This document shows, in pieces, positions 25,718 to 41,603 of a DNA stretch of 41,729 nucleotides. Every line of letters begins with the position of its first letter. Positions within the stretch are counted from its first letter, which is position 1. The notes under the pieces are model-generated. The model was given only the letters and a program-made list of their open reading frames with translations. It was not told where the DNA came from and did no database searches. Source of the DNA: Atopobiaceae bacterium. GTDB taxonomy: Bacteria > Actinomycetota > Coriobacteriia > Coriobacteriales > Atopobiaceae. The translations under genes were made by a program, and so were the position numbers. The stretch covers positions 1 through 41,729 of the forward strand of contig JAFUCQ010000141.1 of the NCBI GenBank assembly GCA_017459605.1. The letters are read 5' to 3'.

Positions 25718-25913
25718 TGACACGAAAATACGTTGTTTGTGACAATTTTTAACGTTTTTCTGTGTTTTGGGGGTGCTATTTTGCTACCCGGGAAACAGAG
25801 CATTCCTATTTTTGCAGGTAAATAGCAGTCCCCAAATAAGAGATATATTAGTGGACTACGTTCAAACGCAGAAAAACGTCAAAAATTGTCAAAAGTTGCC
25901 GTATTTGCTGTCA
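25718..25913 (+). repeat. 196-nt structured intergenic element, copy 1
   Basis: Ends TGACA...TGTCA. The inner arms at 25740-25766 and 25865-25891 are complementary over 27 nt with two exceptions (one A-C, one U-G). A ~98-nt apical part carries the family core at 25770-25803 (GCTACCCGGGAAACA), a possible GTGC/GCAT stem and a GTCC (25828)/GGAC (25853) stem. It has the same length and orientation as the copies at 36826 and 41408. It could be a structured RNA or a MITE-like element; no transposase is seen. Confidence 0.85.
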
Positions 25914-36605: not shown

Positions 36606-36773
36606 AAGGGTGCCCACTGCAAGGCTTACCCTGCGACAAGAGTGCCTACCACAAGGGTCATCCATGGTAATAAGGATGCCTGATACACAGGTCATCAACG
36701 GTAATAAAGCTGCACGCTGTAAGGGTTATCTACGGTAAAAAGGGTGCCTACTAAAAGAGTCATCCCCCTTTAC
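36606..36773 (+). repeat. Degenerate ~34-bp tandem array
   Basis: About five units start at 36606, 36638, 36672, 36706 and 36740. Each begins with AAGGGTGCC-like sequence and contains AAGGGTCATCnnCGGTAAT-like sequence. Units are 32-34 bp and diverged by several bases. The array occupies the coaX-rpmE gap, 52 nt upstream of element copy 2. There is no coding support. Confidence 0.8.
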
Positions 36774-36825: not shown

Positions 36826-37021
36826 TGGCAGAAAAAACCTCTCACGCTGACACATTTTTTCGATTTTCTGTGGATTAGGGGTGCGATTTCGCTACCCGGG
36901 AAACACAGCACTCTCATCGTTGCAGGTAAATTGAAGTCCTTTAATAGGGCGTACTTTAGTGGACCTTTCCAATCCGCAGAAAAACGTAAAAATGTGTCAC
37001 TCAGAGGGGATTTTGGTGTCA
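36826..37021 (+). repeat. 196-nt structured intergenic element, copy 2
   Basis: Ends TGGCA...TGTCA. The inner arms at 36848-36876 and 36971-36999 are complementary over 29 nt except for U-U, A-A and a U-G pair. The core is at 36878-36911 (GCTACCCGGGAAACA), with GTGC/GCAC and GTCC (36936)/GGAC (36961) stems at the same offsets as in copy 1. It lies 228 nt before rpmE and 130 nt upstream of its -10 box. Confidence 0.85.
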
Positions 37022-37207: not shown

Positions 37208-37228
37208 GTCCTGGTCGGAAACCAGGAC
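37208..37228 (+). promoter_or_regulatory. Leader hairpin of rpmE
   Basis: GTCCTGGT (37208-37215), loop CGGAA, ACCAGGAC (37221-37228): a perfect 8-bp stem ending about 8 nt before the RBS (GAGGAG). It is placed to modulate translation and might be a site for autogenous ribosomal-protein control, but the target is not shown. Confidence 0.45.
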
Positions 37229-37249
37229 ACGTAGAAGAGGAGTCCTGCA

Positions 37250-37798
37250 ATGAAAACTGGCATCCATCCTGAGTATATGGAATGCAACGTGCGCTGCAGT
37301 TGCGGCAACACGTTTGTCACCCGCGCAACGGTTCCCTCAATGAGGATTGACCTGTGCGACAAGTGCCACCCGTTCTACACGGGTACCCAAAAGCTCGTTG
37401 ACACTGGCGGACGCGTCCAGCGCTTCTCCGATAAGTTCGGCGGCGCTGCTGCTGCACAGCTTGAGGCTGCAGCTAAGAAGAAGGAAGCTAAGGCTGCCAA
37501 GGCTGCTGAGGAGGCTGCTGCTAAGAAGGCTGCTGCTGAGGCAAAGGCTGCTGAGAAGGCAAAGCGTGCTGCTGAGTATGAGAAGATTGCTGCTGCAGAA
37601 GCCGCAAAGGCTGAGGCTGAGGCCGCAAAGGCTGAGGCTGAGGCCGCAAAGGCTGAGGCAGAGGCAGCTGCTGCTGAGCCCGAGGCTGCTGAGGCTGAGG
37701 CTCCTGCAGAGGAAGCCCCTGAGGCCACTGCTGAGGTCGAGGCTCCTGCAGAGGAGGCTGCTGAGACTGAGGCTCCCGCAGAGGAGAGCGCTGAGTAA
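37250..37798 (+). CDS. rpmE: Ribosomal protein bL31 with long Ala/Glu/Lys tail
   Basis: Residues 1-~75 are a normal zinc-type L31: [20 protein letters not shown] and [10 protein letters not shown] give the zinc-binding cysteines, then the [13 protein letters not shown] end. A further ~105 residues of almost pure Ala, Glu and Lys follow, turning to Ala/Glu/Pro near the end. The first half is predicted as a long single helix (repeats of KAEAEAA), the second as an acidic flexible tail. L31 bridges the two subunits on the ribosome, so the tail would project from the central protuberance. The RBS GAGGAG precedes the start and a strong terminator follows. Confidence 0.92.
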
Positions 37799-39180: not shown

Positions 39181-40248
39181 ATGCGCGACAAGCTTGAGAA
39201 ACTACTGCTTGCCTATGAAGAGCTCGAGAAGAAGCTCGTCGATCCAGAGATTGTGGGCGACCACAAGGAGTATGCCCGCCTTGCCAAAGAGCGTTCGAGC
39301 CAAGAAGAGCTGGTGAGCAAAGCTCGCGAGTACCTCGGTGCACTCGACGACATTGATGCTGCAAAAGAGCTACTTGGCGGCTCAACCGATGCAGATGAGA
39401 AGGCCATGCTGCAAGAGGATATTTCGGCAAACGAGGCACGCCTCCCCGAGCTCGAAGAGCAAATCAAAATCATGCTCATTCCGGGAGATCCTGCAGACGA
39501 AAAGGACACCATCGTTGAGATTCGCGGTGCTGCTGGCGGAGACGAGGCGGCAATCTTTGCAGGCGACCTCTTCAAGATGTATGAGCGCTTTGCCTCTGCT
39601 CACAAGTGGAAAGTCGACGTCCTCTCCTCGAGTCCTTCGGATGCGGGCGGCTTCAAGACAATCGAGTTCAAAGTGACCGGCAACAAGGTCTACTCGGTTA
39701 TGAAGTATGAAAGCGGTGTTCACCGTGTGCAGCGCATTCCCATCACGGAGAGTCAAGGGCGTATTCAAACCTCAACGGCGACGGTAGTTGTGCTTCCCGA
39801 GGCAGACGAGATTGACATCCAAATTGACCCTGAGGATTTGCGCATCGACATCTATCGCGCGAGTGGACCAGGAGGTCAAGGCGTTAATACAACCGACTCC
39901 GCTGTGCGCATTACCCACTTGCCAACGGGAACGGTGGTGCAGTCGCAAGACCAGCGCTCGCAGATTCAAAACCGCGAGGCATGCATGCAAATGCTGCGAG
40001 CTCGCCTCTATGAGGCAGAGTTGGCGCGCCAGCAAGCAGAAGCTGGTGCCACCCGACTCTCGCAGATTGGACACGGCGACCGATCTGAAAAAATCCGCAC
40101 GTACAACCAGCCTCAAGACCGCGTCACCGACCACCGTATTGGCTTTAACGGAACCTACAACGGAGTGCTTCTGGGAGACACTCTGCAGAGCGTCATCGAT
40201 GCCCTTGCAGCAGCTGATCGCGCTGAGCGCCTTGCTCAGGCTGTATAG
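39181..40248 (+). CDS. prfA: Peptide chain release factor 1
   Basis: RF1 recognises UAA and UAG and triggers peptide release. The 355-residue product has the GGQ loop (ASGPGGQGVNTTDSAVRITH), the RF1-type domain with GDEAAIFAGDLFKMYERFA, and the C-terminal VTDHRIGF. I chose ATG 39181 (MRDKLEKLLL), with CAAGGAG 9 nt upstream; ATG 39151 would precede that site. In many genomes prmC, the methylase of the GGQ glutamine, follows directly; here an unrelated gene does. The 250 nt before it, shared with the divergent TF-like gene, hold no clear promoter. Confidence 0.97.
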   Translation: MRDKLEKLLLAYEELEKKLVDPEIVGDHKEYARLAKERSSQEELVSKAREYLGALDDIDAAKELLGGSTDADEKAMLQEDISANEARLPELEEQIKIMLIPGDPADEKDTIVEIRGAAGGDEAAIFAGDLFKMYERFASAHKWKVDVLSSSPSDAGGFKTIEFKVTGNKVYSVMKYESGVHRVQRIPITESQGRIQTSTATVVVLPEADEIDIQIDPEDLRIDIYRASGPGGQGVNTTDSAVRITHLPTGTVVQSQDQRSQIQNREACMQMLRARLYEAELARQQAEAGATRLSQIGHGDRSEKIRTYNQPQDRVTDHRIGFNGTYNGVLLGDTLQSVIDALAAADRAERLAQAV

Positions 40249-40254
40249 CTTGCG

Positions 40255-41250
40255 ATGCGCGCTTACATTTATGGTAGGTCTGCCCTTGCTGTCCTGCGCT
40301 ACCTGCGCGGGATAGCTGATGAGCGCGTGTTTGATGTGGTGCCGCGTGTCCGAGTATCGAATGCTGTCTTACACAAGGTATCCCAGCTCTCGCAGTTGTC
40401 ATTTGAGTCCGAGCTGCTACTCAGGCATGCTGGAGAGCAGCTGGAACTACTTGTGTTTGACAAAGCGCTGGTGTCTCAGAGGAAAGGCCTATGCTATCAT
40501 TTGTGGGGCCGACCAATTCCATCTGGAGCGTTTATAAGACTCAACGACGAACTTTACCTAAGTAGCCCTGCTTTCATCTTCCTTCAACTTGCTCAGGAGC
40601 TCAATCCTTTTGAGCTTGCACTTGTGGGAATGGAGCTGTGTGGCATGTTTGCGAAAACAGGCAATGAGACAAAAGACTTTCGCTCGCGAGATGTAGAAAA
40701 CAGAAATGTCGAATTTGGCCTGAAGCCTGCTTGTAGCAAACGGCGAATAGAGACACTTCTCAAAAACGTGAAGGGTGCTTGGGGTGCAAAGCAAGCTCGC
40801 GTGGTTGCATCTTGGATTACGGATAATGCAGCTTCGCCCATGGAGAGCGCTGCCTATCTTTTGTTGACCCTTCCGAGAAAAAGAGGGGGATACGGTTTGC
40901 CGCAGCCGGCGTTGAATCCCGAATTGAGGTTTCGGGACAATCGGGAAACCATTACCCGCTACCCGGACTTGTACTGGAAGTCTCACAGCATTGATGTTGA
41001 ATATCAAAGTGACTATGCGCATACAGGCAACTGGAGGCGCTATCTTGACTCAAAAAGGCAGGTATTGCTGACGATAAACGATGTGACAGTGCTTCCTCTT
41101 ACGCGCGATCAACTTATGAATGTTGATGATTTTCATGCGTTTGCTCACGGTTTGCAAAAGCTTTTGGGAATACGCAAGCGTCCGGTCAGCCCCGACTGGG
41201 AATTTCAGCGCGCGCAGCTCAGAAAGGCGCTGTTGCTGTCACAGGTATAA
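40255..41250 (+). CDS. Hypothetical protein, possible AbiEi / PD-(D/E)XK nuclease-like
   Basis: This 331-residue protein starts 7 nt after prfA without a good RBS. It has an N-terminal helical part, a middle segment of AbiEi-like style (PSGAFIRLNDELYLSSPAFI, then FLQLAQELNPFELALVGMEL), and a C-terminal part with RYPDLYWKSHSIDVEYQSDY and AHTGNWRRYLDSKRQVLLTI. The order D-x-E-x-Q followed by D and R is like the DUF559/Vsr-like PD-(D/E)XK nuclease core. Such ~330-residue proteins occur in Coriobacteriia and are annotated variously. I infer a DNA-interacting or toxin-antitoxin-like role only weakly. Confidence 0.6.
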   Translation: MRAYIYGRSALAVLRYLRGIADERVFDVVPRVRVSNAVLHKVSQLSQLSFESELLLRHAGEQLELLVFDKALVSQRKGLCYHLWGRPIPSGAFIRLNDELYLSSPAFIFLQLAQELNPFELALVGMELCGMFAKTGNETKDFRSRDVENRNVEFGLKPACSKRRIETLLKNVKGAWGAKQARVVASWITDNAASPMESAAYLLLTLPRKRGGYGLPQPALNPELRFRDNRETITRYPDLYWKSHSIDVEYQSDYAHTGNWRRYLDSKRQVLLTINDVTVLPLTRDQLMNVDDFHAFAHGLQKLLGIRKRPVSPDWEFQRAQLRKALLLSQV

Positions 41251-41290: not shown

Positions 41291-41386
41291 AGGAGGCGCT
41301 TCTTGGGAGGGGTGGTTCTCGTGGGAGGCGGTTCTTGTAAGTGGCGGTTCTCTGGCAAGAGGTGGTTCTCGTAAGAGGCGCTTTCT
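41291..41386 (+). repeat. Degenerate 16-18-bp tandem array
   Basis: About six units of the form GAGG(C/T)GGTTCT(C/T)GTAAG run from 41291 to 41386, just 22 nt upstream of element copy 3. The units differ by 1-4 bases and small indels. No gene is supported in this stretch. Confidence 0.8.
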
Positions 41387-41407: not shown

Positions 41408-41603
41408 TGACAGGAAAAACGCGACCAGATGACACATTTTTGCGATTTTCTGCGGATTGGGGGTGCGATTTTGCTACCCGGGAAACACAGCACTCGCAAC
41501 ACTGCAGTTAAATATGGGTCCCTTAATAGAGGCTTCCTTCGAGGATATCTCTGAAGTACAGAAAATCGTAAAAAAGTGTCATGATGGAGTCGATTTGCTG
41601 TCA
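41408..41603 (+). repeat. 196-nt structured intergenic element, copy 3
   Basis: Ends TGACA...TGTCA. The inner arms around ATGACACATTTTTGCG...CTG and CAG...CGTAAAAAAGTGTCAT pair over 24 nt with one A-A mismatch and one G-U. The core is at 41460-41493 (GCTACCCGGGAAACA). GTCC (41518) pairs with GGAT (41543) through a G-U at the same offsets as GTCC/GGAC in the other copies. The 126 nt after it to the window end show no gene. Confidence 0.85.

Follow-up and report, generated by a model that had tools for sequence, protein, structure and literature searches.

Palindromic DNA elements of about 200 bases in Coriobacteriia and their association with a family of predicted Vsr/EDxHD-like nucleases

We report a large, apparently undescribed family of palindromic DNA elements, each about 200 bases long, that is scattered in gut and rumen Coriobacteriia and is associated with one family of predicted nucleases. 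The nuclease, as yet unnamed, is encoded in 273 of 398 genomes of this class of common gut and rumen bacteria, and it stands nearly always beside a palindrome that also spreads without the gene. Together the two make up what appears to be an undescribed, class-wide two-component system. The explanation that we favour, with moderate confidence, is a mobile system resembling the REPtrons, in which non-autonomous palindromes are dispersed and a master nuclease is their cognate, though its parts are unrelated to those of the REPtrons.

The window, by which we mean the whole 41,729-nucleotide stretch of Atopobiaceae DNA that was analysed, contains three copies of the element and one gene of the nuclease family, as follows.

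25718..25913, + strand: element copy 1, 196 nt, flanked by a GNAT acetyltransferase gene (-) and tilS (+)
25740..25762, + strand: left inner arm of copy 1, TGACAATTTTTAACGTTTTTCTG
25869..25891, - strand: right inner arm of copy 1
25763..25868, + strand: core of copy 1, stem P2 formed by 25771-25776 with 25800-25805
36826..37021, + strand: element copy 2, 196 nt, flanked by the gene of a type III pantothenate kinase (-) and by the L31 gene with its leader (+)
36848..36870, + strand: left inner arm of copy 2
36977..36999, - strand: right inner arm of copy 2
36871..36976, + strand: core of copy 2, stem P2 formed by 36879-36884 with 36908-36913
41408..41603, + strand: element copy 3, 196 nt, with the nuclease gene about 160 bp upstream
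41430..41452, + strand: left inner arm of copy 3
41559..41581, - strand: right inner arm of copy 3
41453..41558, + strand: core of copy 3, stem P2 formed by 41461-41466 with 41490-41495
40255..41250, + strand: associated nuclease gene, 331 aa, predicted Vsr/EDxHD-like C-terminal domain, directly after prfA and upstream of copy 3

An earlier note, made from the sequence alone, had claimed three 196-nt copies in the same orientation and free of indels. This claim held: each copy is exactly 196 nt long, all lie in one orientation and the number of indels is zero. The nuclease association, with one of the genes inside the window, had been missed. Among the long inverted repeats in the window these three rank as the strongest, and each folds much more stably than dinucleotide shuffles, with z values of -7.3, -6.3 and -5.8 (0 of 200 shuffles). 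The sequence GCTACCCGGGAAACA occurs exactly three times in the window (0.69 expected at up to three mismatches), and the arm 23-mer has six matches, two per copy (0.00 expected).

The home genome (G000) is a draft of 2.27 Mb in 144 contigs and is 89% complete. A DNA search showed that it contains 13 close copies, the three of the window included, which align over 196 columns with zero gaps at a pairwise identity of 64-86%. A search of the genome with the inner arm TGACACTTTTTTACGATTTTCTG, allowing up to three mismatches, returned 24 hits that form 12 inverted pairs, always exactly 129 nt apart, and controls returned 0. The same search found these ends at no other spacing, and no solitary arm was found in this genome away from contig ends, where several copies sit. 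The covariance model showed a second subfamily of at least nine copies in the home genome. Its arms (TTTGCGTT...GTTTCATG) differ markedly from those of the first, and its core is of the same type. The position and orientation of the copies relative to genes are inconsistent, the flanking genes being convergent, divergent or codirectional. On 9 of 11 contig segments the copies run in the direction of most coding sequence, which is not significant enough for use, and GC skew was too weak to orient the copies. Two peculiarities of the second subfamily were seen. Three of its copies (L155, L156 and L161) share GTCCCTTAATAAG immediately beyond the left end, and the core of the first subfamily contains a similar string; in L157/L160, the outer arms have traded places with respect to the core.

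Each end of the element carries two TGACA boxes, at positions 1-5 and 23-27, which are 22 bp apart and mirrored at the right end. Because the left end of copy 2 reads TGGCA, the consensus is TGRCA at the 5' end, with TGTCA at the 3' end. In the home subfamily the inner box is followed by TTTTTNACGATTTTCTG. Mean identity among the 13 copies was 89% in the inner arm (positions 23-45), 74% in the core (46-151) and 58% in the variable outer part (1-22). The strong pairing lies in the inner 23-30 nt of the arm, where positions 23-45 pair with 152-174, and it is copy-specific, own arms scoring 0.936 and arms of different copies 0.879 (permutation p < 2e-4). No copy-specific pairing was found at positions 6-22, between the boxes (0.471 within copies versus 0.472 across copies). 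In the conserved core, which measures about 106 nt, stem P2 (GGGTGC with GCACYC) encloses GATTTTGCTACCCGGGAAACA; GCAGGTAAAT comes next and is followed by a weaker pairing of GTCC with GGAC. The earlier note's TGNCA...TGTCA ends, fold-back arms of about 50 nt and core of about 34 nt are thus refined, the strong pairing being shorter and the core longer.

Its claim that the arms diverge with pairing kept was also borne out. Across genera, covariation was seen in all 29 of 29 arm pairs, with 229 cells changed on both sides versus 75 in shuffles. Covariation alone fits both an RNA helix and inverted repeats bound by a DNA-binding protein; a wobble test tells them apart. The arm mismatches comprised 20 G-U, 20 A-C and 65 others, and in the arms of 87 elements the corresponding numbers were 157, 122 and 398. 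In stem P2 the ratio of G-U to A-C was 17:4 across genera and 16:1 in the home genome. The arms, with G-U about as frequent as A-C, therefore likely evolve mainly as DNA inverted repeats and not under selection for an RNA helix. The core is shown to fold, and the G-U excess in P2 suggests that its stem, read from the plus strand, behaves like folded RNA or a single strand. We consider this likely, in the absence of expression data.

With a covariance model built from the 13 home-genome copies we retrieved homologues, about 195 nt long, from other genera and also from another family. A second model, built from 26 diverse copies, matched at least 108 of 398 Coriobacteriia genomes and 33 of 153 genera at near-constant length; few candidates were scored per genome, so that this is a lower bound. 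These searches of the home genome and its relatives, which the earlier note had proposed as a check, agree with its claim of many copies per genome. In ten genomes, counting reverse-strand matches, we found about 8 to 50 model matches per genome, and the rumen assembly RUG12554 is another genome rich in copies. The core remains similar across genera while the arms change between them, and subfamilies with different arms have multiplied separately in each lineage. Searching Rfam at gathering and at loose E-value thresholds gave nothing relevant, a core 20-mer had no match across the genome contig collection, and the arm pattern was not found in viral contigs. We found no description of Coriobacteriia repeats of this kind in the literature searched, and among the palindromic RNA candidates of PMC8040213 none in the main text comes from Coriobacteriia and fits. 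The claim that no named RNA or transposon family matches has thus held. A co-oriented cluster (G101:C5) was considered as an integron-like cassette array and ruled out, its spacing being irregular, its genes ordinary and its arms not attC-like.

Inspection of loci showed that one protein family adjoins an element, or stands between two, in genome after genome. For 19 of the 20 best-scoring nuclease genes, the covariance model placed an element no more than about 500 bp away. This count is not independent, because the nuclease profile was derived from element flanks. The only independent set is a blind test of 20 nuclease loci from many genomes, picked by protein score only. In 19 of these loci an inverted repeat of 149-287 bp lay at most 190 bp from the gene; the rest of the 4 kb held no other repeat of equal strength, and the rate in shuffled sequence was 0.01 per 4 kb. 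Since just four of these elements were recognisable to the covariance model, the test is not circular. The element lay upstream of the gene in nine loci, downstream in six and on both sides in four. Thirteen further loci from other genera and families yielded a comparable element in ten; a detectable element was thus absent from 1 of 20 loci in the first set and 3 of 13 in the second. A central (G/C)CAGNT(C/A) motif recurs in many otherwise unrelated cores of nuclease loci. These data show that the nuclease family is associated with the palindromic element. Arm similarity rises with nuclease identity, weakly (rho 0.19; 1 of 500 permutations as high) and mostly through pairs above 45% identity, and common descent is a possible explanation of this correlation.

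Several elements (L150, L147 and L152) flank HipBA, ParE, MqsA-HIRAN and TOTE-primase genes. At another locus (L175, G105:C56 56-75 kb) the contig consists of a large inverted duplication, each side of which carries two elements and a nuclease; this may be an assembly artefact.

The nuclease gene of the window starts six bases past the stop codon of prfA (40248-40255), and it is possible that the two are co-transcribed. The nuclease locus L154, from another genus, also adjoins a prfA-like gene, on its other side. Residues S194, E197, P237-D238, E249, S252 and H256 are invariant in the nuclease alignment, and the canonical PD-(D/E)XK lysine is absent from the motif. An AlphaFold model of the protein (pLDDT 83, pTM 0.85) was searched with Foldseek, and the match of best probability was the catalytic domain of the homing endonuclease I-Bth0305I (PDB 3r3p; probability 0.90, target TM 0.51-0.53), with an E value of 0.15 that is not significant alone. 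I-Bth0305I was also the only nuclease matched in a weak sequence profile search (E 0.24), and PF18741 matched below threshold (0.005). Nothing in Pfam, NCBIfam or PADLOC matched the family above threshold. The Y1/HUH Pfam models had no match in element-adjacent proteins, and the window protein gave none even at E<=10. The structural model thus supports a Vsr/EDxHD-like domain of the PD-(D/E)XK fold as a prediction, and catalytic activity is inferred. The full-length protein was found only in Coriobacteriia, and outside the class only the C-terminal part was matched. It was not found in phages, and plasmids gave one weak Collinsella hit. A second member in the home genome lies on contig C95 beside an element of the second subfamily.

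Presence and absence of an element were shown at one orthologous site. In genome G031 an element lies between the 3' end of what we take, by eye and without a family search, to be a tadA-like deaminase gene and the next gene, and the same junction lacks the element in four other genomes of that genus. Intergenic divergence blurs the boundary of the empty site, and the element ends and any duplication could not be defined there. Around the 13 home-genome copies, target-site duplications of 2-10 bases were not above a cross-copy control, with a marginal excess at length 6 (2.5 versus 1.8 matches). A recent jump was not observed. Two genomes that are about 97% alike in one region have kept their elements at the same positions, suggesting that movement is not frequent. 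A 180-nt indel between G094 and G105 was rejected as an element difference, being a deletion inside a gene. A related transposon with the same ends had also been proposed for search. No larger element with a transposase between such ends was found, at up to three mismatches, in the draft home genome, whose assembly is incomplete, or in 139 genomes of the family.

In the REPtron-like explanation, the repeats would be dispersed copies of a mobile palindromic element without genes. Its structured core, about 100 nt long and carrying the central motif, is enclosed by a terminal inverted repeat of about 25-60 bp at each end. One or a few copies per subfamily would form a master locus beside the Vsr/EDxHD-like nuclease gene, here the ORF at 40255-41250 with copy 3. 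The nuclease may recognise the inverted repeats of its own subfamily and cut DNA at elements or targets. Strand transfer or break repair would then copy the elements into intergenic sites, and no fixed target duplication would result. The core would probably act in the form of folded RNA or of single-stranded DNA, serving, for instance, as a structure for recognition or loading. Mobilisation by the nuclease and the role of the core are, like its activity, inferences. A bolder version, in which the transcribed core binds the nuclease and makes it an RNA-dependent or RNA-guided enzyme that places palindromes, an RNA-assisted mobile system confined to Coriobacteriia, we regard as unlikely, and there are no transcript data. 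If the nuclease does move the elements, the arrangement of dispersed palindromes with one master endonuclease has evolved at least twice with unrelated enzymes, and the persistence of such repeats in bacterial genomes becomes directly testable. The family supplies matched enzyme-DNA pairs in their hundreds, and it may include an RNA-assisted nuclease.

Three other explanations were weighed and seem unlikely to us. The nuclease could be a toxin or defence effector and the element its RNA or DNA control part (an antitoxin RNA, an operator or a self-protection mark), the dispersed copies being solitary remnants. One gene and one structured element per locus, the proximity of some elements to HipBA, ParE, MqsA and TOTE primase genes and the RNA-like wobble in the core all speak for this. 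However, the element occurs on either side of the gene, and a simple leader or antitoxin is therefore disfavoured; 13 and 9 dispersed copies in one genome, with subfamily-specific amplification, are hard to account for; and PADLOC yields nothing convincing. It is also conceivable that the elements are structured RNAs or regulatory DNA with a host function, selected at each site, and that the nuclease association is secondary. The absence of indels among 13 diverged copies, the copy-specific coupling of the arms, the covariation and wobble of the core and its similarity across genera would fit such a role. Against it stand the lack of a constant position or orientation relative to genes, the separate amplification of differently armed subfamilies in each lineage, the missing element in the four relatives of G031 and the association with one gene family.

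The elements might also be ordinary MITEs moved by a conventional transposase that is missing from the draft assembly, with the nuclease as a frequent passenger. They are indeed intergenic and multicopy with long terminal inverted repeats, and the assembly is fragmentary and incomplete, with copies at contig ends. Yet neither a solitary arm away from contig ends nor a larger element with the same ends was seen, and no target duplication was found. Moreover, MITEs keep their ends and lose their interiors, whereas here the core persists and the arms change between genera, and the nuclease is associated across many genera.

The closest comparison for the REPtron-like explanation is with the REPtrons themselves, which combine REP/REPIN repeats with the HUH enzyme TnpA_REP (RAYT) (PMC8266576). 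Both comprise dispersed intergenic palindromes and a dedicated gene, often single-copy, for a DNA-cutting enzyme (here predicted) with cognate repeats adjoining, and in both repeat and enzyme co-diverge. The REPtron criterion that repeats be both dispersed and adjacent to the enzyme gene is met. REPs, however, measure 20-50 nt, carry a GTAG foot and depend on an HUH enzyme for processing, whereas the Coriobacteriia elements are about 150-250 nt long (196 nt with TGRCA/TGTCA ends in the home subfamily), have long inverted repeats and a structured core, and are paired with an unrelated Vsr-like nuclease family. ERIC, Correia, RUP and YPAL sequences and MITEs are palindromic intergenic repeats. 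Our elements resemble them in being about 100-200 bp long, palindromic, intergenic and multicopy, and they meet the criterion of terminal inverted repeats, but neither a target duplication nor a parent DDE element was found, the core is better conserved across genera than the arms, and there is a nuclease gene family of their own. With Vsr-like/EDxHD homing endonucleases (I-Bth0305I) the nuclease would share a C-terminal fold, as predicted, and it shares an association with a mobile element; it differs in being encoded, at the loci inspected, by a free-standing gene beside a palindrome and not inside an intron or intein, in its extra N-terminal half of about 190 aa and in the dispersed copies without the gene. 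IS200/IS605 TnpB, IscB and IS110 elements combine a nuclease or recombinase with a structured non-coding RNA. That pairing within one mobile element is a likeness, but no TnpB, IscB or IS110 protein is present here and long inverted repeats are. The system would have the working logic of a REPtron, with unrelated parts and without any matching family.

Tandem repeats adjoin two of the three copies in the window. A degenerate 34-bp repeat (36643-36765) lies immediately left of copy 2, and a degenerate 16/32-bp repeat (GAGGCGGTTCTCGTGA, 41292-41380) separates the nuclease gene from copy 3. The ribosomal protein L31 gene near copy 2 (37250-37798) has 182 codons, of which residues 1-64 form the L31 domain and the remainder is encoded by short tandem repeats, and an L31-Coriobacteria leader RNA lies 5' of this gene at 37208-37242.
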